Under the pieces are notes generated by a model. That model was not told the DNA's origin. It did not search any database and saw only the letters and a list, made by a program, of their open reading frames with translations. Both the position numbers and the translations under genes were made by a program. Of a stretch of 20,450 nt of DNA, positions 3,307 to 19,444 are shown in pieces (position 1 is the stretch's first letter; the number at the start of each line of letters is the position of its first letter). The stretch is from a virus. The stretch spans positions 1 to 20,450 of the IMG/VR virus record IMGVR_UViG_3300030060_000108. One strand, given 5' to 3'.

Positions 3307-6300
3307 TTAATCTTTACCAAATAATTTCTGTGTTTGTTCTTTTATATTTTGTGGTATAAACTCATCTATTCTTATAGGTTGTTTATAGTTTTCTATTTTA
3401 TAAACAGAAAATGCAGCATCATATTTATCAGCTATTTTAGTTATAAGAGCATCTATTTTATCTACATTTTTTTCGTATTGCTCTTGTGTAATTAAACCTC
3501 TATTTAATTTATTAACTTGATCTTGTATCTGCTGTCTTGCCGCATTAAGTTTTCTTCTTAATTCTCCAGCTTTTAATGCTTGTAATTTATCTATAGATTT
3601 AGTTTCTACTTTAAATCCTAGAGCTCTAAATAATGCACCTATTTCTGTCTCTTTAGTTCTGTAAGGTGACTCATTACCTTTTCTTGCAGTATCTATTCTT
3701 TGTGTTGAAAATGATCCAGGTAAAAAAGGTATGTTAGGTGTTAAATCTTGTATTAAATCTTTACCTATAACTTTTAAATTTTCAAAATCATTTATACCTA
3801 GCCCTCTAGTTTTTCTTTGACCATACATGTCATAACCTACAAGAGAACTTAAAACTTGACCTGCTATACCAAAATTAGGCTGAACTGGTGCAGGTAAATA
3901 TGGAAATAAATTACCACCGACATCAAAAATATCTCCACCAGGAACAAATCTAGTTAAGTTTACATATTTAGGGCCTTCAAAAGGTGAGTCATCAGTTTTT
4001 GGAACAGGCAATTTTATCTCTCGATATGGCATAAAATCAAACATAAATGTACCTTTTTGTTTTTCTAACATCAAAGCTCTTTCTGCTTTCTCATCACCAC
4101 CACCTACCAAATTACCCATTGCATTTAAACCGTAACCAAGTGCTGCATACTTTAAATACTTCCAAGGTCTAACAACTGCAGTTTCTGCAAGTATTGGAAC
4201 TATTCTATATGTGTAAGCTAAAAATGGAGTCATTGATAATCTCATCCAATTTATAGCAGGTGCATTAATATTATAATCTATAAAAGATCTTCGAGCATCT
4301 AGCCCAGCTTCTGCTGCAGAATAGCCTTTTGCTAATCTATCTTGAAATACTGATAATCTAAATACATGATCTTCAAATCTATACCAATCAGTAAGTTTAG
4401 CTAATGGATTATTTTTTCTAATATCTTGATACACATTTAATGCAGCTTTAGATCCACTAGTAAATGCATTTCCATCATATTTGTATGGCATAGCTAAAGC
4501 TAGTTCTTGAATTTTACCAAGTTCTTTTGTTACAAAATCTGCCTCGAATACACCACTTCTTTGTGCAAGTTGTACTAAATCAGAAACTCTATCATCAAAC
4601 TGGCCTTCTTTACCTGTAATTAAATTTTTTATAATACTTTCATCTTGTTTGTAATTCATTAATGCTTTATATGCTTTAGGCAAATACTTAAAATCTGCAT
4701 CAATTAAATCATGTAATACAAAATTACTTACAATATTATTAGTATGTACAGTTGGATTCCAAGCTGTTTTAGATACTTTCCAAAGAGAATTTGCTTTTCT
4801 ATAAAGCGATAAAGCATCATGACTTGTAGTATTATAAAATTTAGTAGTTGATAATAAATCTTTATAAACTTCTTCTGGAACATATTTATCAGCTAAACCA
4901 CCATATCTAAATCTAGATGCAGGATTTTTAGGATCAATCCTAGTTGTTGGCATCTTAACAAGTTTATTTTTTAATTCTTGTGGTAAATCAGCGTACTGTG
5001 CTTTTGTGTATGTATAAGGTTGTTTTGCTAAACTATCATAAAATTTTAATTGTGGTAGTGTGCTAGAAAAAGCTCTACCAGTTTCAGCTATAGCAAATGC
5101 TGCATCTTCTATCTCACCTAAACCTACTCTTTGGGGTTTAGTAAACTCCCATCTAATTTCTACTTCATCAGTTGGTTTTAATTTAGCGTAATCTTTTTCA
5201 CTACTATTTAAAAGTTCCCAACCTCTATGGTTATTTAATCTTTCTTTTTTACCAACAACATCTTCAAATAAATATTTTTTACCAGTCGCACCTGGTACAT
5301 CCTCTAATTCAAATATAGGTTTTTCTCTTAGTGATGTAGTAGTAAATGCTATTTGATCTTTATAATAATCTTCGTACTCTTGTTTAGTAACTTTTTGATA
5401 TGCACCTCTTAATTTTAATTCTTCACCAAAACCTCTAGGTTCATCTTTATATTTAGAGTAAGTTCTTTTTAAATATGTATCTTTATTTTTTAAAAAAGTT
5501 GCAGGTGATAATATTCCCATATCAACATAATCTTGTGCGACTTCTGTAATTAAATCTCTAGCTTCTTTAGATATATTATTTAAAGCCTCTGTTTGTACTT
5601 TAAATATATTATCACCTTCTAGCATATTAAATAAAATTTTACTTTCATCTTCAGTTAAATTTTTATGAATTTTAATAGCTAGATCAGAAAATCTAGAAGC
5701 TATGTTTGCGGCATGACCTTGTGCACCAGCTTGTAATTTTTTATAATTAGCTGGTAGTTTATAATTATCTATAAAGTATCTGCCAAGCAAATCATATAAA
5801 GATTCAGTAACTTCTACAGTTTCATCCTCTTGATTTTTTCCAAATTGTCTTTTATAAGTTTTTGTTTTGCTTAATTTTTTTGTAAGTTTAATACCACCTG
5901 CACCAGCTAAAAAACCTATACCCATTCTACCAAACTTGCTGCTTATTGGTGCTTCTTCTTCAGCTGTTTGATAAGCATATATACCACTAAATGCACCAGT
6001 TCCTAATTCTGCACCACTTAATCCTTTAATAGGTATTTGTGTTCCAGGTATTGTTACTTGTTTATCACCCGATATTTGCTCGTACAAAGGTTTACCAAAT
6101 CTTTCTTCATATACATCTAAAAATTGTTTATAGAATTTTCTAACTCCTCGTAGCATATCTGCTTTACCACTAGGTATATCATTTAATTTTTCTGGTTCTT
6201 GTACATCAATTTTATTTCTAATTTCAATATCTCTTTTATTTAAACCAGCTTCGTTAAATAATTGTTGTTTATGCAAATTATTAGCAGCAGCAGCTTTTAC

Positions 6301-10219: not shown

Positions 10220-10344
10220 TATCTCCCCTGTCGATTATATTTTTTAAAGCTACGCTTCTCATCTTTGTTTTTTGATTTCTTATGTACTCTTGGTCGTTTC
10301 TTTGGTTTTGGTCTTTCTTCAAACGATTTAAACTTTCGTGCCAT
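10219..10344 (-). CDS. 41-residue very basic protein
   Basis: A short frame between two longer genes encodes MARKFKSFEERPKPKKRP, then RVHKKSKNKDEKRSFKKYNR and QGR. Nineteen of 41 residues are Lys or Arg. It joins both neighbours by TAATG (start at the stop of the chaperone-like gene, stop at the start of the 468-residue gene), so the operon has no gap without it. From memory, near-identical tiny genes occur at this point in other marine phages. Nucleic-acid binding or packing with the internal virion core is plausible from charge alone; function is unknown. Confidence 0.7.
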   Translation of the reverse strand: MARKFKSFEERPKPKKRPRVHKKSKNKDEKRSFKKYNRQGR

Positions 10345-10631
10345 TATGGTTTAGTTGGCCATGTAGCACCTTCACATTTAGCAACAGTGTCTTTACCTGC
10401 AGGCAAATCTCTAAGATCTTTACGATATGTTTTCATATCATCAGATAGAGTATTGTCAGATAAAGCAAGGTAATCAGTCTCAGCAAGAAGTCTATTTCTT
10501 TTAGCTCTAAGATCAGCTAAAGCTCTAGCAGGTGCAGCATCTGACCACGCTTTCTCTTCAGCATCTCTTGCAGCTTCTTCTGCAGCTGTAAACTGTACTT
10601 TGTTACCGTTTATATTATGATATCTTGGCAT
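10344..10631 (-). CDS. Tail assembly chaperone-like protein (Phage_tail_APC-like)
   Basis: The 95-residue product has a short N-terminal part (MPRYHNINGNKVQFTAAEE), an acidic helix (AARDAEEKAWSDAAP), and a C-terminal module: LRAKRNRLLAETDYLALSDN, then MKTYRKDLRDLP and WPTKP. The pattern RN-LL-ETD followed by YR-LRDLP and a final WP-P is typical of the phage tail assembly chaperone family found beside fibre genes. Such proteins help fold or attach distal fibre parts and are absent from the virion. It follows the second three-gene fibre block, 18 bases after its stop, with AAGGAG inside the gap-side sequence for the preceding region. Family call is from motif recall. Confidence 0.7.
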   Translation of the reverse strand: MPRYHNINGNKVQFTAAEEAARDAEEKAWSDAAPARALADLRAKRNRLLAETDYLALSDNTLSDDMKTYRKDLRDLPAGKDTVAKCEGATWPTKP

Positions 10632-10649: not shown

Positions 10650-11267
10650 TTATAAAATTCCGTATAAGCAAATATCTCCAGCATCTATGTTTCCGCTAGA
10701 AAATTTAAATTGAACTTCATCTATGGCTTCTGTTGTATTTATATATCCAGCGTAAAAACTATCTACTGAAATATCTCCGTAATAATAGCTATTAGTTCTT
10801 AATATAAAATGTTTTACAAAAGTTGTGGATGATGGGTTAAATAAATGTAAATAACCAGAAAAACTTTCATCATTACCATTACCAATTGCATTAGCTATAT
10901 TTTGAAATGATGTGCCTTGTGCTTGATCGTAATCAGTTCTGTATTGAAATTGCTCTGTTCCACCATCTTCTGAAAGTAAAGCATGAAAAGTAGTTGTTGT
11001 TAATGTTTCATTAAAACCACTAGCACCAGATTTATTAAATTGAACTCTTGGTTCAACATTATCTGTTGCTGGATGTATATTGTTAAATGTAAATAAATAT
11101 TCTTTATAAGTAGAATCTATTACAACATCTGATGTTCCATCAACAAAACTTAAAGTAGAACTAGAACTAGCAGTCAACTTTTTAATAAACACCATAGATC
11201 CAGTATTTAAAGACCCAAAGGCTGATACAGATCTAACTCCTCTATTATTAAGTGTGACTATGCTCAT
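10650..11267 (-). CDS. Paralogous fibre-region structural protein, block 2 gene 3
   Basis: This 205-residue protein is one of six paralogs in the window. The N-terminus MSIVTLNNRGVRSVSAFGS is the MSI-type leader shared with the next two upstream genes. The body carries GSMVFIKKLTASSSSTLSF, DSTYKEYLFTFNNIHPATD, GNGNDESFSG, LHLFNPSSTTFVKHF, AGYINTTEAIDEVQFKFSSG and the ending LYGIL. It is beta-rich with no signal peptide or membrane span. Within the family it is closest to the gene at 13710-14369 (shared FIKKLTASS, FNN-x-H and LHLFNPSSTTF), not to its immediate neighbour. A receptor-binding or fibre-tip role follows from location between fibre genes and is inference. Confidence 0.7.
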   Translation of the reverse strand: MSIVTLNNRGVRSVSAFGSLNTGSMVFIKKLTASSSSTLSFVDGTSDVVIDSTYKEYLFTFNNIHPATDNVEPRVQFNKSGASGFNETLTTTTFHALLSEDGGTEQFQYRTDYDQAQGTSFQNIANAIGNGNDESFSGYLHLFNPSSTTFVKHFILRTNSYYYGDISVDSFYAGYINTTEAIDEVQFKFSSGNIDAGDICLYGIL

Positions 11268-11887
11268 TATGAATCCTTTATTCCATAGAGTTTTATAGTG
11301 CCAGCATCTATGTTGCCAGAGTTCATTTTAAATTGAACAGCATCAATAGCAGCAGTTACGTTACAATAACCAGCTACACGATAATTTAATGAAGCATTGC
11401 CGTCTTGATAATATTGAGTGGTTGACATAAAATGTTTAACAAATGTTGTAGATGACGGATTGAATAAAAACATTTCTCCAGATAAACTTTCATCATTACC
11501 ATTACCCATATTTAAATTTAAACTTTGAAAACCAGTATTTTGAGCTAATCCTTCATTACTAGATCTACTATTTAAAGCTGCTTCACTATCTCCTTCATTG
11601 TGAACTGCTACAAAAGCAGTTGTAGTTTTGGTAGCATCATAATCTGTGCCTCCATCCCTAAAACCTACGCCAAATTCTGTTGAATCTGTTGCTGGATGCA
11701 TATTAATAAATTTAAACAAATAAATAGGATAAGTAGAATCTAATACTACATCATCACTACCATTTACAAAAGATAGTGTACTACTAGAACTAGCTGTTAA
11801 AGTTTTAATAAGTGTTAATGATTTAGCTGCCCCAGGTATAGCTGAAATATTTGCAATGCTTCTGTTGTTGTAAGTTACAATTGACAT
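11267..11887 (-). CDS. Paralogous fibre-region structural protein, block 2 gene 2
   Basis: This 206-residue paralog has the MSI-type leader (MSIVTYNNRSIANISAIPG), then LIKTLTASSSSTLSFVNG, DSTYPIYLFKFINMHPATD, FRDGGTDYDATKTTTAF, LFNPSSTTFVKHF, YCNVTAAIDAVQFKMNSGN and the ending IKLYGIKDS. That ending, the DSTYP motif and FRDGGTDYDATKTT are shared specifically with the gene at 14369-15040, the middle gene of the other block. The variable region lies between residues about 90 and 130 and around 155-170, as expected for surface loops. Both junctions are TAATG, so the block is probably translated as a coupled unit. Confidence 0.7.
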   Translation of the reverse strand: MSIVTYNNRSIANISAIPGAAKSLTLIKTLTASSSSTLSFVNGSDDVVLDSTYPIYLFKFINMHPATDSTEFGVGFRDGGTDYDATKTTTAFVAVHNEGDSEAALNSRSSNEGLAQNTGFQSLNLNMGNGNDESLSGEMFLFNPSSTTFVKHFMSTTQYYQDGNASLNYRVAGYCNVTAAIDAVQFKMNSGNIDAGTIKLYGIKDS

Positions 11888-12489
11888 TACACAACTCCAT
11901 ACATTTTAATTGTTCCAGCATCTATGTTACCTGAACTAAATGAAAATTGAACACCATCTATTGCACTTGTTGTATTACAATAACCAGCTACATAATGAAT
12001 TAATTGATAGTCTGATTGACCTGACATACTTGAACTTGCTATAAAATGTTTAACGAAAGTTGTATTACTTGGATCAAATAAATCTAAACTACCTGATGTA
12101 GATTGGTCATTATCATTACCTATATTTCTTCCTAAAACTTGAACAGCTGTAGAGTTTGCTAAATCTTCTCTACCTTCATAATCTAAACCAGCCTCAACAT
12201 CTCCTTCAGATTGATATGCTCTAAAAATTGTTGTAGTTTTAGATGCATCATAGGCTGTACTACCATCTCTAAAATTTACTTGAAAATTAACATCGTTTGT
12301 TGCTGGGTGTATATCTGTAAATTTAAAAATATATTTTTTATATGTAGAGTCTATGTTGCTATCAAAGGTGATATTAGCAGAACTTGATGCAGTTTGTGTA
12401 GATATTAATACTAAGCTACTACCAGAAACCCCTGAAGGGAGACTGGTAATGGATGCCATGGATCTGTCATTGCATACATTGATTGACAT
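11887..12489 (-). CDS. Paralogous fibre-region structural protein, block 2 gene 1
   Basis: This 200-residue paralog has the MSI-type leader (MSINVCNDRSMASITSLPS), then SSLVLISTQTASSSANITF, DSTYKKYIFKFTDIHPATN, IGNDNDQSTSG, LFDPSNTTFVKHF, AGYCNTTSAIDGVQFSFSSG and the ending IKMYGVV. It differs from the two following genes in LFDPSNTTF instead of LFNPSSTTF and in FTD before the HP motif. These features are shared with the gene at 15040-15684, the first gene of the other block. It starts 3 bases after the stop of the 109-residue gene, with AAGGAT upstream as Shine-Dalgarno. Confidence 0.7.
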   Translation of the reverse strand: MSINVCNDRSMASITSLPSGVSGSSLVLISTQTASSSANITFDSNIDSTYKKYIFKFTDIHPATNDVNFQVNFRDGSTAYDASKTTTIFRAYQSEGDVEAGLDYEGREDLANSTAVQVLGRNIGNDNDQSTSGSLDLFDPSNTTFVKHFIASSSMSGQSDYQLIHYVAGYCNTTSAIDGVQFSFSSGNIDAGTIKMYGVV

Positions 12490-12492
12490 GGG

Positions 12493-12822
12493 TTATCCTT
12501 TAGGGTTGTCTGATCTTACTTTATCACAATGATCTTTAAATGTTGATGTGCCGTTCTTTTGATCCTTGTAGATCATTTCCATTTGCTGTTGCCATGTTCC
12601 GTATTCTCTTCTTCTTTTTGCTAAAACACCATTTAATGTTTCTTCTGCATTAGCTGCTGTTTCATACTCTGCTATTTTACTATCACTAGGTTTATCAAAA
12701 CTATAAGTCCAAGTTTTAATATAAGGCCCAGAGCCATCATCTTGTAAAGATACTTTTGTATCATCCCAAGTTTTAGAGTTATCTTCTATATAAAGTTTTG
12801 TTTTTGTATAAAGTGACGCCAT
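12493..12822 (-). CDS. Small fibre-associated protein, possible tail chaperone
   Basis: This 109-residue hydrophilic protein begins MASLYTKTKLYIEDNSKTWD and has a C-terminal helical part: AKRRREYGTWQQQMEMIYKD, then KNGTSTFKDHCDKVRSDNPK. The pattern R-x-Y-G-x-W-x-x-Q-x-E-M-I-Y-D is one I associate with small genes next to fibre genes in marine phages. It lies directly after the C1q-like fibre (2 bases between stop and start) and before the second three-gene block. A fibre assembly chaperone is the favoured guess from size, charge and position. There is no signal peptide or membrane span. Confidence 0.55.
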   Translation of the reverse strand: MASLYTKTKLYIEDNSKTWDDTKVSLQDDGSGPYIKTWTYSFDKPSDSKIAEYETAANAEETLNGVLAKRRREYGTWQQQMEMIYKDQKNGTSTFKDHCDKVRSDNPKG

Positions 12823-12824
12823 AA

Positions 12825-13700
12825 TTAAACTCCAATTAATTTATATCCACCAAATTCATTTGATTTTGTACCAGCAGCTAGTAACCCTGTACCAGAGTTT
12901 ACTACAATTTGAAAGTAAGCCTCAACATAGTCAGAACTTCCATTCATATCAATCACTGCTTGGTTCATTACACTATTATCATATCCACCATAATTATTTC
13001 TAAAATCTAATTGATAACTAGAATAATTACTTCCATTTTTATATATATTAGATACTACTTTACTTGTCGCACTATGATCTGAACTATCCATATATAATTT
13101 TGCGTATATTAAATATTTTCCAGCCACTTGAGGTGTAAATCTATAATTTGTTGAATTATCATAAGCACTATCAGTATCAAAAATTTCTACATCAGCTTGA
13201 ACCTTTGTAATAGCATTTGCTGATGACGCAGATTGATTAGATGTTCTTGTAGCTGCAAAAGCTGGAGTGTTAGCAGCTTTTAAATAACTATAATCTATTC
13301 TTTTTATAGTACCTGCATCTGATATTAATAATTCATCTGTATCGTCAGGACTACTAGTTAAAGCTGTCTGCCCTGAAATAATATCATTGTTTAACTTAGC
13401 AGCAGTCACAGTATCGTCAGATGGCTGGCCGATGTCGAGCACATTACCTAATATTTGAACGAAGTCTATTACATCCCCTGTCGCCAGATTCGAGGCGAAG
13501 GTCATCGTACTACCTGAGATTGTAAAGGATGATCCTGGTTTTTGTAGGATACCATTTAAACTGACCAGCATATGATTAGCTGATTCTGGGGCTACGTTTA
13601 CGCCCCCTACTTGTAGAGTATAGGCTGCCTGTCCGTTTACGACTGATATCGCATCACAGACTTGAAAGTTACCTACTGTGGGTGTTTTTCCTATGTACAT
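12825..13700 (-). CDS. Tail fibre protein with C-terminal C1q-like domain
   Basis: This 291-residue protein is modular. Residues 1-95 are a fibre anchor module (MYIGKTPTVGNFQVCDAISV, LVSLNGILQKPGSSFTISGS, GDVIDFVQILGNVLDIG). Residues 96-145 are a linker (DDTVTAAKLNNDIISGQTAL, ELLISDAGTIKRID). Residues 146-291 look like a C1q/TNF-type jelly roll: AFAATRTSNQSAS, FDTDSAYDNSTNYRFTPQVA, GKYLIYAKLYMD, SYQLDFRN, EAYFQIVVNSG and the end FGGYKLIGV. Such domains trimerise at fibre tips and bind receptors. The anchor-coding DNA is much GC-richer than the C1q-coding DNA (hand count about 44% for 13441-13680, about 24% for 12961-13080). AAGGAG lies 5 bases before the ATG. Confidence 0.8.
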   Translation of the reverse strand: MYIGKTPTVGNFQVCDAISVVNGQAAYTLQVGGVNVAPESANHMLVSLNGILQKPGSSFTISGSTMTFASNLATGDVIDFVQILGNVLDIGQPSDDTVTAAKLNNDIISGQTALTSSPDDTDELLISDAGTIKRIDYSYLKAANTPAFAATRTSNQSASSANAITKVQADVEIFDTDSAYDNSTNYRFTPQVAGKYLIYAKLYMDSSDHSATSKVVSNIYKNGSNYSSYQLDFRNNYGGYDNSVMNQAVIDMNGSSDYVEAYFQIVVNSGTGLLAAGTKSNEFGGYKLIGV

Positions 13701-13709
13701 TGTTTCTCC

Positions 13710-14369
13710 TTAATTAATTCCGTAAAGTGTTATAGTTCCTGCATCCATGTCACCACTTTGAAATTTAAATTGAACAGCATTAATAGCTGACGTAGTATTA
13801 CAATACCCAGCCATATAATCTACTATTGCATAATCTGTATAATAATATCTATGTGATGTAGCTAAAAAATGTTTTATAAAAGTAGTTGATGATGGATTAA
13901 ATAAATGTAGGGTTCCAGCACATGTTTCATCATTACCATTTCCAACTCCATCATTAAGCATTTGAAAATCTGTTGATTGTGCTAAATCGTTAGCATCTGC
14001 ATATGTTAATGAAGTTGCACTGCCACTTTCATTTTGGTAAGCGGCAAAAAAATTTGTAGTTTTTGTTACATTATAATTAGAACCACCATCAGCAGAAAAA
14101 TTAACTAGAAAATCAACATTATCTGTTTCTGGATGCATATTATTAAATATAAACATATACTCTTTATAAGTAGAATCTAAAACTACATCACTAGAACCAT
14201 TAACAAAAGATAATGTACCATCAGAACTAGCGGTCAACTTCTTAATAAAAGTCATAGAGCCAGGTTCAAGGGTAGCCTCTAGTGCATCAGGATCAGAATC
14301 AAAACTAATAGCTTTATTAGCTGCTGGTGTTACATTAAGACTATTATATTTTAATTTATTAAGTGCCAT
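13710..14369 (-). CDS. Paralogous fibre-region structural protein, block 1 gene 3
   Basis: This 219-residue paralog has the MAL-type leader (MALNKLKYNSLNVTPAANKA), then GSMTFIKKLTASSDGTLSF, DSTYKEYMFIFNNMHPETD, GNGNDETCAG, LHLFNPSSTTFIKHF, AGYCNTTSAINAVQFKFQSG and the ending ITLYGIN. Its nearest relative in the window is the gene at 10650-11267, not its neighbour. The leader resembles fibre anchor modules of the NVTPAA-A type, so this end may attach to the tail while the body faces outwards. The ATG shares a base with the previous stop (TAATG). The C1q-like fibre begins 9 bases after the stop. Confidence 0.7.
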   Translation of the reverse strand: MALNKLKYNSLNVTPAANKAISFDSDPDALEATLEPGSMTFIKKLTASSDGTLSFVNGSSDVVLDSTYKEYMFIFNNMHPETDNVDFLVNFSADGGSNYNVTKTTNFFAAYQNESGSATSLTYADANDLAQSTDFQMLNDGVGNGNDETCAGTLHLFNPSSTTFIKHFLATSHRYYYTDYAIVDYMAGYCNTTSAINAVQFKFQSGDMDAGTITLYGIN

Positions 14370-15040
14370 TAACTATCCTTAATTCCATAAAGTTTTATTG
14401 TACCAGCATCAATATTTCCTGAATCAAATTTAAATTGAACACCATCTATTGCAGTTGTTGTATTGCAGTAACCAGATATATAATTATCAATATTTCCTGG
14501 TGCTGAATTTGTATAATGATGTGCATAATTTGAAATAAAATGTTTAACAAACGTAGTTGACGAGGGATTAAAAAGATACAAATGTCCAGAGCCACTACTA
14601 TCATTATCTCCTGAAGATTGATATTGTCCAATTCTTTGAAAATTTGTTGATTGAGCTAAATCCTCACTAGCTTGATAACCTAATCCAGCGTCACCTTCGT
14701 TATCTCTTTCAAAATGGTATGCTCTAAAAGCTGCTGTTGTCTTAGTAGCATCATAATCTGTTCCACCATCTCTAAAATTAACTTGAAGCTGTGCTTCAGC
14801 AGAACTATGAATATTAATAAGCTTAAATAAATAAACAGGATATGTAGAATCTAATACCACATCACTACTACCATTTACAAAAGATAATGTAGAACTACTA
14901 CTAGCCGTCAAAGTTTTAATAAGCACCATGCTACCAGGATTAATAGTTGCAAATCCATTGGCATTTGCATTAAACCCTAGGGCTGTGCTAGCTGCACTCG
15001 TTACATCAAAACTATTATAATTAAATTTTGTAAGGGCCAT
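14369..15040 (-). CDS. Paralogous fibre-region structural protein, block 1 gene 2
   Basis: This 223-residue paralog has the MAL-type leader (MALTKFNYNSFDVTSAASTA), then LIKTLTASSSSTLSFVNGSS, DSTYPVYLFKLINIHSSAE, FRDGGTDYDATKTTAAFRAY, LFNPSSTTFVKHF, YCNTTTAIDGVQFKFDSGN and the ending IKLYGIKDS. The GNGNDE segment of its relatives is replaced by SSGDNDSSGSG, and HPATD by HSSAE, so it is the most divergent of the pair it forms with 11267-11887. It is beta-rich, without signal peptide or membrane span. TAATG junctions on both sides imply coupled translation with the rest of the block. Confidence 0.7.
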   Translation of the reverse strand: MALTKFNYNSFDVTSAASTALGFNANANGFATINPGSMVLIKTLTASSSSTLSFVNGSSDVVLDSTYPVYLFKLINIHSSAEAQLQVNFRDGGTDYDATKTTAAFRAYHFERDNEGDAGLGYQASEDLAQSTNFQRIGQYQSSGDNDSSGSGHLYLFNPSSTTFVKHFISNYAHHYTNSAPGNIDNYISGYCNTTTAIDGVQFKFDSGNIDAGTIKLYGIKDS

Positions 15041-15684
15041 TATGTTACTCCATATAATTTAAATGTTCCCGCATCTATATCACCCGATGCAAATTTAAAT
15101 CTAATTCTTGTAATTGCAGTAGTTGTATTAATATACCCAGTGGCAAATTCATTTATTGCGTAATTATTATGTGTGTAACCATGAGCACGGCTAAAAAAAT
15201 GTTTTACAAATGTAGTGTTACTTGGATCAAATAATTGTAAAATCCCTGCACAACTTTGATCATTATCATTACCTATTGTTCCAGTTAATGTTTGAAAAGA
15301 TGTTGCTTGTCCTTGATCGTCTGCTGTTTTATATCCAGGCCCATCAGTATTTGCACTTTCATCTTGTGCTGATCTAAAAAATGTTGAAGTAATAGTTTGA
15401 TTATAATTTGTATTTGTGCCTGTATCAAATTGACAAGTAAATTTTGTACTGTCTGTTGCTGGATGAACATCTGTAAAATGCACTTGGTATTCTTTGTAAG
15501 TAGAATCTATGCCACTAGTTATATCAATAGTTCCAGAACTACTAGCTGTAGTTGTAGATATCAACACCAAACTACCCCCAACATCCCCTGTCTCTAGACC
15601 ATTATTATTAGAGTTAAACTTGATTGCCTTGCTTGCAGCAGGCGTTACGTTTATGCTATTGAAGTCAACCTTAGAGAGTGCCAT
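15040..15684 (-). CDS. Paralogous fibre-region structural protein, block 1 gene 1
   Basis: This 214-residue paralog has the MAL-type leader (MALSKVDFNSINVTPAASKA), then GSLVLISTTTASSSGTIDIT, DSTYKEYQVHFTDVHPATD, IGNDNDQSCAG, LFDPSNTTFVKHFFSRA, YINTTTAITRIRFKFASGD and the ending FKLYGVT. The LFDPSNTTF and FTD-x-HPAT features pair it with 11887-12489. It begins 3 bases after the stop of the 58-residue gene. The role is probably structural, at or near the fibres; no catalytic motif is visible. Confidence 0.7.
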   Translation of the reverse strand: MALSKVDFNSINVTPAASKAIKFNSNNNGLETGDVGGSLVLISTTTASSSGTIDITSGIDSTYKEYQVHFTDVHPATDSTKFTCQFDTGTNTNYNQTITSTFFRSAQDESANTDGPGYKTADDQGQATSFQTLTGTIGNDNDQSCAGILQLFDPSNTTFVKHFFSRAHGYTHNNYAINEFATGYINTTTAITRIRFKFASGDIDAGTFKLYGVT

Positions 15685-15866: not shown

Positions 15867-17240
15867 TTATAACTCCGCACTAAATGCAACGTATCCACTT
15901 GCACTATTAAATCTTGTTCTACCAGCATGACCAGCAGTTGAACTTACGTTTGAATCTGTGTATAAATGTGCTGAATCAATATTTGATGTATTTAAAGAAA
16001 AATCATTAAATTCATCGTTATCTGAATTTCTATTAACATTATAATAATTTGTCCCTGTTGCTGATTCTAATGATGGATTGGTTCTCATAGAAGTTGGAAA
16101 TTCTAACATTGTAAACACAGCACTAGAAGTATAATAAGCCGCTGCTCCAATACTTCCACTAGTACCATTAGGATTTATTCTATAATAATATCTTTGACAT
16201 TTTTTTAAATTTACATCAACAGGCAAGAACTCAAAATTTGTTGCTGTTGTTCCAACTTCTAATTGTACTCCAGTAACATACCATTCGTTTGATGTGCTAT
16301 CTGCAAGGTTGACTTGACCTACTGCATTGTTGGCACTTGTATTAGATTCCCAAGATGTTGCTAAAGTTCCAGATGTATAATTTGATCCAGCACCTAACCA
16401 AAAATAAAGTTGCAAACTTGTTCCATTATCATTTGTTAACGCACCAGTAGTATCTCCATCAAAAGTTATAGTTTTCTTTTCCCAAGTATCAGCAGAAGAT
16501 ATTGTATAAGATTTTGAAGTTGATCTTGTATTATCTGCATCTCTAAGTCTTGCAATATAAGTTCCAGTTTTATTTGATTTAACCCAAAAAGATAAAGTTG
16601 TACTTTCAGCAGATGATGTGCCTTTTTTTAAATACTGTAAATTTTGACCTTCTATTTTTTGTGTAATATAAATATAATCACTTGCTGCTGGAGAAGCATC
16701 AGCAGTTGTGCAATCCATTTTTAAAGAAGTTGCAAAACCTTGACCAGTAGGAACATCAGTTGATTGAGATTGTGTCCAAGTTCCTTGACTGCTTATTTCT
16801 TGTTTAAATCTGTCTACTGTTTCATAAGAACTTCCAGTAAGTGATGATGCAGAAGTTCCTCTTTGAGCAATGCTCATATCTCCATTGATGACGATGTTTC
16901 TAAAATTATTATTAAAAATTTGAGATTGGGAATTTTCTGATAACATAGCATTTGTAATACTGTTTGTTACAGGGGTTACAGTTTGTAATGCTCTACCTAA
17001 AAATACACAGTACATCGTATCTGTCGAAGCTGTAGCCGCAGATAGTGTCAACGCTGTGCCCGTAGCAGTATATGCTTTACCAGATCCAGGTTGCTGTCTT
17101 ACGTTATTTACAAATAAAGCTATTTCGTTTTCATTTGTTACTGCGTGATCTAGAGTATAGGAGGTAGTCGCACTCGTAGAAAACTCTTGAGTAGCAAATG
17201 AAGTAAATGATTCTGTAGGTTGATTTCCAATATAGGCCAT
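15867..17240 (-). CDS. Tail fibre protein with carbohydrate-binding-like module
   Basis: This 457-residue protein is modular. Residues 1-90 form an anchor module (MAYIGNQPTESFTSFATQEF, NEIALFVNNVRQQPGSGKAY, MYCVFLGRALQTVTP). A linker follows (NSITNAMLSENSQSQIFN). Residues about 115-325 resemble a CBM-type beta-sandwich as seen in phage fibres: NIVINGDMSIAQRGTS, ETVDRFK, YLKKGTSSAESTTLSFWVKS, WEKKTITFDGDTTGAL, YVTGVQLEVGTTATNFEFLP. After KKCQRYYYRINPNGTSG comes a distal domain to the end. The module probably binds host surface glycans. Anchor DNA is GC-richer (about 40% for 16981-17220 by hand) than distal DNA. The Shine-Dalgarno GGAGATA lies inside the end of the preceding gene. Confidence 0.8.
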   Translation of the reverse strand: MAYIGNQPTESFTSFATQEFSTSATTSYTLDHAVTNENEIALFVNNVRQQPGSGKAYTATGTALTLSAATASTDTMYCVFLGRALQTVTPVTNSITNAMLSENSQSQIFNNNFRNIVINGDMSIAQRGTSASSLTGSSYETVDRFKQEISSQGTWTQSQSTDVPTGQGFATSLKMDCTTADASPAASDYIYITQKIEGQNLQYLKKGTSSAESTTLSFWVKSNKTGTYIARLRDADNTRSTSKSYTISSADTWEKKTITFDGDTTGALTNDNGTSLQLYFWLGAGSNYTSGTLATSWESNTSANNAVGQVNLADSTSNEWYVTGVQLEVGTTATNFEFLPVDVNLKKCQRYYYRINPNGTSGSIGAAAYYTSSAVFTMLEFPTSMRTNPSLESATGTNYYNVNRNSDNDEFNDFSLNTSNIDSAHLYTDSNVSSTAGHAGRTRFNSASGYVAFSAEL

Positions 17241-17667: not shown

Positions 17668-18738
17668 TTATCCAAGAGCAATTGCAAGAGCTGTTGGATC
17701 AGTTGTACTAAATCCTGCACTTGATAAATATGTTTTAACATCTGATAGTGCTACTTGTTTCATAGTACCATTGTCATTTGTAACTACTCTATCTGCATCT
17801 ACTAAAGTTGTAGAACTAGCTGCTGTATCACCATCCATTATATTTATTTCAGCAGCTGTAGACGTTACTCCGTCTAGAATATTTAATTCAGCAGCTGTGG
17901 ATGTTACTCCATCTAAAATATTTAATTCAGCAGCCGTAGATGTTACTCCATCTAAAATATTTAATTCAGCTGTAGTAACTGTCGCACCATCTAATATTTC
18001 TAATTCTGCCTCTGATATACCTGCAGATCCAATAGTTACTGTTCCTGCAAAAGTTACATTAGCACCACTAAATGTCATAGCAGTTGTAGGTGTAGATCCT
18101 GATTTAATTACAAGTTCACCACTAGAATTTGTTAAACTACCAAAAGTTGTACCATCATCTTTAAGTGTGACATCTGCTCCACCAGCATCTAAAATAATAT
18201 CAGCACCAGCATCTAACGTAATATTACTAGAGTTGTCTATTTCTGCAATAACTGGTGTAGTTAAAGTTTTATTAGTTAATGTAGATGTAGAGGCATCTGA
18301 TACTAAAGTTGAATCACCACCAGTACTTGGAATTGTTAAAACATTACTAGCACTTTCTGAGTGTGGTGCAGCTTTAATTTGCTGACCATGTGAATTATTT
18401 TCACAATTAAATTGAATAGTACCTTGATTTGTATTACCTTTAACAGTTACATGACCTGTACCATTTGGTGCTAATTCTATATCTGCATTTGATGTAGTAA
18501 CAATATCTTGACCATTCATATCAAGATTGCCACCTAATTGTGGAGATGTATCTTCTACAACATTTGATATTTCAGAACCTGATACAAGACCTGCTGTTAA
18601 TGTGGACCTTGTAATTTTTTTAAGTCCACCACCTGAAGTATCTACTGCTAATAGTACATCATCTCCAGCTACTGTAGATATTTCAGATAAACTTCCTGCA
18701 GCAATTGAATTAAAGTTTGTACCATCTGCAACTAAAAT
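17668..18738 (-). CDS. Tail fibre, C-terminal part (separated by a frameshift)
   Basis: This frame is open from 18738 to the TAA at 17668 (about 356 residues); its first ATG is only at 18519. The sequence before that ATG is clearly fibre-like (VADGTNFNSIAAGSLSEIST, VAGDDVLLAVDTSGGG, SEISNVVEDTSPQLGGNL), so it belongs to the protein begun at 19444 and the ATG is not the true start. It contains DMNGQDIVTTSNADIELAPN, then TSTLTNKTLTTPVIAEIDNS, then four tandem TAAELNILDGVTS-type repeats, and ends FSTTDPTALAIALG. The continuous protein would be about 590 residues. Such repeats form trimeric beta-rich fibre shafts. One base must be skipped or removed near 18734-18737 to join the parts. Confidence 0.75.
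   Translation of the reverse strand: MLVADGTNFNSIAAGSLSEISTVAGDDVLLAVDTSGGGLKKITRSTLTAGLVSGSEISNVVEDTSPQLGGNLDMNGQDIVTTSNADIELAPNGTGHVTVKGNTNQGTIQFNCENNSHGQQIKAAPHSESASNVLTIPSTGGDSTLVSDASTSTLTNKTLTTPVIAEIDNSSNITLDAGADIILDAGGADVTLKDDGTTFGSLTNSSGELVIKSGSTPTTAMTFSGANVTFAGTVTIGSAGISEAELEILDGATVTTAELNILDGVTSTAAELNILDGVTSTAAELNILDGVTSTAAEINIMDGDTAASSTTLVDADRVVTNDNGTMKQVALSDVKTYLSSAGFSTTDPTALAIALG
17851..18006 (-). repeat. 39-bp coding tandem repeat in the tail fibre
   Basis: Four consecutive 39-bp units start at 17851, 17890, 17929 and 17968. The first three are nearly identical; the fourth is more diverged. Each encodes 13 residues of the form AAELNILDGVTST. Two related units occur in the N-terminal part near 18801-18856, and the degenerate AAEINIMDGDT follows after the last. 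These are shaft repeats of a fibre and could expand or contract by slippage or recombination. Confidence 0.85.
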
Positions 18739-19444
18739 CTACTATTACTGCTTTAGATGCACTTACAGTTCCAGCTGTAATTCCATCAACTAAATTTAAT
18801 TCTGAAGCTGTCGAAGTAACACCATCTAAGATATTTAGTTCTGCAGCTGTTGAAGTTATATTAGTTCCCCCAATATCTAGAGTAGTCATAGATACTTCAC
18901 CTGCAACTGTTAATACTCCATCAGCAAGTGTTAGTAAATCTGTATCTGAAGTATGCCCTATAGTTGCACCATTAATATTTATATTATCAATCACAGCCTG
19001 TGTTATAGCACTATTAGTACCAAGGGTAGCCCCATCTACCGTACCACCGTTTATATCGGCTGTATCGGCCACTAAAGCATCAATATTTGCTGTACCATCA
19101 ATAAATAGATCTTTAAACTCAAGAGAGGAAGTTCCTAAGTCTATATCACTATCTGTAATAGGTACTATAGCACCATCTTGTATTCTTAACTGCTGTACAG
19201 CAGCTGAAGATACCTCTACATAAAATTCTAAATGATTATTACTTGTATCAACAAGTATTTTATTTAAAGCATCACTATCTCTAAGAGTAGTTACAGGTCC
19301 ACCATCACCCGCAGTACCATCATGCGTGTGTCCTGTAGATGCATTAAACGCTGCTAATAACTGGTTAAACTCATCATTAGAATGAGCAGCCGTTATAGTA
19401 TCGCCTGATGTAAATGTTGATTGTCGTGCTGAATAGCCTGCCAT
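18710..19444 (-). CDS. Tail fibre, N-terminal part (ends at a frameshift)
   Basis: The 244-residue frame starts MAGYSARQSTFTSGDTITAA and continues HSNDEFNQLLAAFNASTGHT, HDGTAGDGGPV. This is a fibre anchor module common in marine phages. It carries His39-x-His41, a pair resembling HxH metal-binding sites of trimeric fibres. Then come IDLGTSSLEFKDLFIDGTAN, LDIGGTNITSTAAELNILDG and VTSTASELNLVDGITAG. After ASKAVIVD the frame runs into FSCRWYKL and stops, while the next frame supplies the expected fibre sequence. Residues after about 235 are therefore probably not native. The start overlaps the nozzle-like gene stop (TAATG), preceded by AGGAGGAAGGAG. Confidence 0.75.
   Translation of the reverse strand: MAGYSARQSTFTSGDTITAAHSNDEFNQLLAAFNASTGHTHDGTAGDGGPVTTLRDSDALNKILVDTSNNHLEFYVEVSSAAVQQLRIQDGAIVPITDSDIDLGTSSLEFKDLFIDGTANIDALVADTADINGGTVDGATLGTNSAITQAVIDNININGATIGHTSDTDLLTLADGVLTVAGEVSMTTLDIGGTNITSTAAELNILDGVTSTASELNLVDGITAGTVSASKAVIVDFSCRWYKL

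Follow-up and report, generated by a model that had tools for sequence, protein, structure and literature searches.

The six tail-fibre genes studied here belong to a family that is carried in sets of three, and sequence comparisons indicate that each set very probably encodes a receptor-binding tip in the form of an obligate 1:1:1 heterotrimer; its recognition loops would be interchangeable and its assembly assisted by a chaperone. Three copies of one protein normally make up a phage fibre. We infer that each three-gene set would give rise to one tip containing one copy of every paralogous subunit. The N-terminal stems would pack round a pseudo-threefold axis, with a complementary core at residue 6 (small, aromatic and leucine), and the heads would join via a four-stranded sheet (s1-s11-s3-s7), through the face on which residues are position-specific. 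Where a tip attaches would depend on its stem type, so that a phage with two sets is proposed to make two different tips, while head segments without position identity would be the ones likely to touch the receptor.

The window is a stretch of 20,450 nucleotides, a portion of a 22.7-kb IMG/VR virus record. Every DNA match to it in the phage collection is a Pelagibacter phage, the longest being in HTVC033P, and the genome with the six genes is SAR11-phage-like. As an earlier note on this DNA had described, six open reading frames (ORFs) are present in two blocks of three, all on the minus strand. Set A consists of A1 (15040-15684, 214 aa), A2 (14369-15040, 223 aa) and A3 (13710-14369, 219 aa). 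In A1 a type A stem (MALSKVDFNS, with V at residue 6) is followed by a head; residue 6 is F in A2 and L in A3. Set B consists of B1 (11887-12489, 200 aa), with a type B stem (MSINVCNDRS, residue 6 being C), B2 (11267-11887, 206 aa, residue 6 Y) and B3 (10650-11267, 205 aa, residue 6 L). All four internal junctions are TAATG, and the shared motifs quoted in the note (e.g., LFDPSNTTF, DSTYP and FIKKLTASS) are found in the six proteins. Each of the six matches the phrog_14820 profile (E 5e-60 to 3e-84). Pfam gave no significant domain in any of them, and a weak match to DUF6807, far under the family cut-off, was dismissed.

These genes sit in a tail-fibre module beside fibre and chaperone genes, also on the minus strand. 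Directly after B3 lies a tail-fibre assembly chaperone (10344-10631; PF16778 Phage_tail_APC, phrog_4912), a relative of which comes after 194 of 209 arrays; it probably aids folding or assembly of the tips. Between sets A and B there are a small XkdW-like protein (12493-12822; weak PF09636, phrog_9114) and a longer, single-copy tail fibre (12825-13700; phrog_18673), relatives of the latter being found in 59 of 61 between-set gaps. Another single-copy tail fibre (15867-17240; phrog_4492) lies upstream of set A. Neither of these two fibres matches phrog_14820 in the window. In relatives, the N-terminal part of the phrog_4492 fibre bears a phrog_14820-like head and a phrog_18673-type N-terminal part can bear the set-gene head fold; at loci L053, L062, L083 and L071 this fold forms the C-terminal part of single-copy long fibres of two kinds. 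The heads of these long fibres look exchanged. HTVC033P (L005) has no phrog_14820 match, and its fibre region has 2OG-Fe oxygenases and a putative ferrochelatase instead, which indicates that the module was replaced between related phages. Elsewhere in the window (17668-19444), TSTAAELNILDG repeats are common to two adjacent ORFs, perhaps a single fibre gene interrupted by a frame break; at L062 and L083 the comparable place holds a single ORF of ~650 aa.

Comparison of the six proteins shows that they are chimeras, with a stem that follows the block and a head that follows the position. In the N-terminal stems (approximately residues 1 to 25-40), identity is 26-54% within a block vs. 12-27% across blocks. 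For the heads, the counterpart at the same position in the other block is the nearest relative or ties for nearest (50, 64 and 58% for positions 1, 2 and 3), with the exception of the B1 head, to which A2 (57%) and B2 (55%) are more similar than A1 is (50%). That a gene most resembles its counterpart therefore holds for heads, B1 excepted, and fails for whole proteins, where A1-A3 identity is 48.6% vs. 46.2% for A1-B1, and A3 is 53.7% identical to both B2 and B3. Trees behave in the same way. The three cross-block pairs are not recovered with full-length proteins, the only such pair being c2 in 18% of bootstraps, and all three appear with heads only: A1/B1 (c1, 63/83), A2/B2 (c2, 96/93) and A3/B3 (c3, 68/89), of which the second alone is strong. 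Full-length trees are mixed because stems group by block and heads by position. The nearest relatives of the window genes that were examined are of the same block and the same position in other phages, so blocks A and B are not a recent local duplication. The whole-cassette duplication put forward in the note is an old event accompanied by stem replacement, not a local tandem copy.

We then asked how the family is organized elsewhere. IMG/VR was scanned with differently ordered queries and then with proteins of stem types D and C and a distant one, and bacterial genomes were scanned once in addition, which together yielded 305 non-contained loci. Complete arrays, defined as those clear of contig ends, number 158: 114 with three genes, 38 with six, five with nine and one with two; when near-identical arrays are collapsed, 94 of three, 31 of six and two of nine are left, plus the lone two-gene array. 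In that array (L360, a contig filed as Roseovarius), the GC content changes from ~0.65 to ~0.31 inside the second gene, near position 6000, and we therefore take it to be cut by a chimeric contig joint. No intact array with a gene number not divisible by three (4, 5, etc.) was present among the 158. In these counts, a score of ~125 bits divides set genes cleanly from the lower-scoring single-copy long fibres, with a few genes of 236-259 aa at 100-125 bits also admitted, so that the divergent L337 counts as six. Apparent arrays of 4, 7 and 10 were rejected, the additional gene being a long single-copy fibre, an ORF matched twice or a weak-scoring short fibre-like ORF. Arrays comprise one to three sets per genome, and within-set junctions overlap or nearly touch, most often as TAATG. 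Single-block versions, which the note had proposed searching for, include the cultured isolates HTVC010P, HTVC019P and HTVC034P, with exactly one set apiece; random gene order and number, the outcome it had named as contrary, was looked for in the related loci and not found. There is one distant true singleton, in phage Lederberg EXVC029P (L004 6821-7468, 111 bits), and a search for its relatives gave two distant matches only, both within three-gene sets. Possibly homotrimeric, this protein is a natural control and may represent the ancestral state. In bacterial genomes four contigs matched, two of them SAR11; plasmids gave no match.

Within a set, the stems go together. Stem type is identical across the three genes in all 93 non-identical sets and agrees in all 177 sets of a wider sample, in which a few mixed labels were text-pattern mis-parses that we re-read by eye. 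Across positions, residue 6 differs in a regular fashion: A/C/V at position 1, Y/F at position 2 and L at position 3. In 84 sets of A/B type the triples are CYL (33), AYL (20), VFL (14), AFL (6) and others (11, of which two or three were mis-located through insertions), and D-type stems have an analogous triple near residue 11 (A or L, L or I, and F). When gene order was predicted from short segments, leaving out of the training triads with a same-position protein at least 65% identical, residues 1-20 gave the order 1-2-3 in 90 of 93 sets; in B2 this segment, where position identity is strongest, corresponds to 11828-11887, with the Y6 codon at 11870-11872. Residues 54-62 and 189-206 each recovered the order in 84 of 93 sets, and recovery was weak for residues 63-132 (18 of 93, chance being 15.5) and 143-188 (30 of 93). 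Further, unrelated stem types occur in sets of three at L333, L312, L198 and L337-L345, while at L343, L351, L352 and L353 a stem is found in gene 1 only, genes 2 and 3 starting at the head. The third gene of a distant set (L198, 1114-2712) encodes 532 aa, its stem and head being separated by a long glycine-rich insertion.

Sets with other stem types separate the composition of a set from the order of its genes. Head classes were called with profiles trained on A- and B-stem sets. In C-stem sets the heads are in the order 3-2-1 in 10 of 13 cases, and in D-stem sets in the order 2-1-3 in 11 of 18, a weaker result since the class of gene 2 is often ambiguous there; the order 1-2-3 is absent among cleanly labelled C- or D-stem sets. 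Independent head-class calls nevertheless give one of each class in ~85% of sets. The permuted orders show that having one member of every class is a matter separate from gene order. This permuted head order, the array counts, the stems and the position code together give strong support to the suggestion that a fixed set of three different subunits functions together, for example in a heteromeric fibre tip.

Outside the stem, position identity is confined to one face of one four-stranded sheet. Position information reaches 0.3-0.9 bit at residues 55/57/59/61 (s3), 138/140 (s7), 197/199/203 (s11) and 26/28-30 (s1), and it is high too at residue 41 and at two strand ends (54 and 204). The in-between residues of s3, s7 and s11 carry 0.00-0.10 bit, and the other strands ~0.06 bit vs. 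0.035 for shuffled labels, the remaining columns outside the stem being close to this shuffled value; column 113, mostly gapped, gives an artefactual 0.92 in data and shuffles alike. Mean-field direct coupling analysis (DCA) of 1078 sequences predicts the antiparallel pairs s1-s11, s11-s3 and s3-s7. The alternate-residue pattern and this strand pairing place the position-specific residues on the same face of the same sheet, which we infer to be a trimer interface. An earlier AlphaFold2 model, for which six sequences were used, was of low confidence (pLDDT 70.9), and searching the PDB with it was not informative. A better monomer model of B2 has a mean pLDDT of 86.7, with most of the head >90 and strands where DCA and the position code put them. 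It leaves the stem unresolved, as would be expected if the stem folds only within the complex. A PDB fold search with this model gave nothing significant (best E ~0.01, low probability), and neither did a PDB profile search by sequence. In BFVD, 97 viral models share the predicted fold (E ≤ 0.001), some of them annotated as tail fibre or side tail fibre. Three of the matches (A0A516KYE9, A0A516KYE7 and A0A516KYD7) are neighbouring accessions of similar lengths, which hints at three-gene sets in phage families further away as well. As the head fold is also found in single copy, in long fibres and in Lederberg, the fold alone does not need three paralogs.

The rest of the head behaves differently. 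When the most similar sequence in a different phage was sought, it came from the same position in 182 of 423 cases for segment 66-134 and in 158 of 423 for segment 151-188, compared with 420 of 423 for stems and 414 of 423 for the sheet face. Cross-position matches of variable segments reach up to 97% identity, and these segments are shuffled freely between positions. Being variable, exchanged and without position identity, they are predicted to be the part that likely contacts the receptor. This bears directly on the main competing explanation, in which each set encodes three different homotrimeric tips, all needed and each with its own receptor or fibre position, the genes merely being kept together. 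Phage fibre tips are usually homotrimers, and single-copy long fibres, presumably homotrimeric, bear the same head fold. However, separate receptors for each position would predict position identity in the variable segments, the opposite of what we observed, position identity lying on the stem and one sheet face. Moreover, two of the three subunits have no stem at L351-L353, and stem type switches in all three genes together. Since separate homotrimers account for the set and not for where the position code lies or for loops being traded freely, we consider them improbable.

By comparison, a 1:1:1 heterotrimer would jointly explain the multiples of three, the common stem, the complementary residues, the position-specific sheet face, the stemless partners, the tight translational coupling and the chaperone. 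A heteromer of other stoichiometry or geometry, such as a hexamer or a ring stack on one fibre, fits the matched-set sequence evidence equally, but trimeric symmetry is usual for fibre tips and the DCA sheet order matches the interface sheet of trimeric TNF/C1q-type folds, which makes it very unlikely. Plain tandem amplification for variability, with no functional set, would fit recombination of variable segments among copies but is already contradicted by every intact array being a multiple of three and by position codes kept across lineages, and we give it practically no credence.

How do these sets compare to known systems? C1q itself is an A/B/C heterotrimer, and the DCA order s1-s11-s3-s7 resembles the order A-H-C-F of the TNF/C1q jelly roll, to which no significant PDB match was found by structure or sequence. 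Homotrimeric phage fibre tips share the predicted fold in BFVD, often as the C-terminal domain of a longer fibre. The PHROGs entry phrog_14820, which holds all six proteins, carries no function, stoichiometry or set structure. Mizuno et al. 2014 (PMC3909814) proposed a C1q-like protein as pelagiphage receptor-binding protein, and in that paper XkdW is listed, with genes for tail-fibre assembly, among the contents of hypervariable islands. This concerns the same host-recognition region of HTVC010P-like phages as the three-gene sets, of which the passages of PMC3909814 found by term make no mention. We found no heterotrimer reported for pelagiphages in the open-licence literature. The closest conceptual precedent is the heterotrimeric tail of virophage DSLV2 (PMC12724248). 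Its three consecutive paralogous proteins form clades by position and reportedly purify together as a heterotrimer, for which an AlphaFold3 model is given; they are said to be T4 gp37-like and to possess a collar domain. By description, pelagiphage sets are similarly three consecutive paralogs with conserved position classes. Unlike DSLV2, they occur in tailed phages, each genome having one to three sets whose stems and loops are exchangeable, and no significant Pfam domain, a collar domain included, was found in the six proteins here.

Going beyond the heterotrimer itself, it is an evenly balanced possibility that these genes form a modular system of three slots, with a fixed frame, stem types that do not mix and loops traded among slots and phages, so that three binding surfaces are combined in each tip. 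The stem code and the sheet face would force one subunit of each class into every tip, and separate stem types would stop the two or three tips of one phage from mixing. Few organisms in the sea are as abundant as SAR11 bacteria and their phages. If the tips are indeed obligate heterotrimers with swappable loops, one virion would present three different binding surfaces per tip, which could explain the hypervariable host-recognition islands. It could also break the assumption of one gene for one homotrimer in host-range prediction and fibre annotation, and the sets would constitute a natural orthogonal heterotrimer code.
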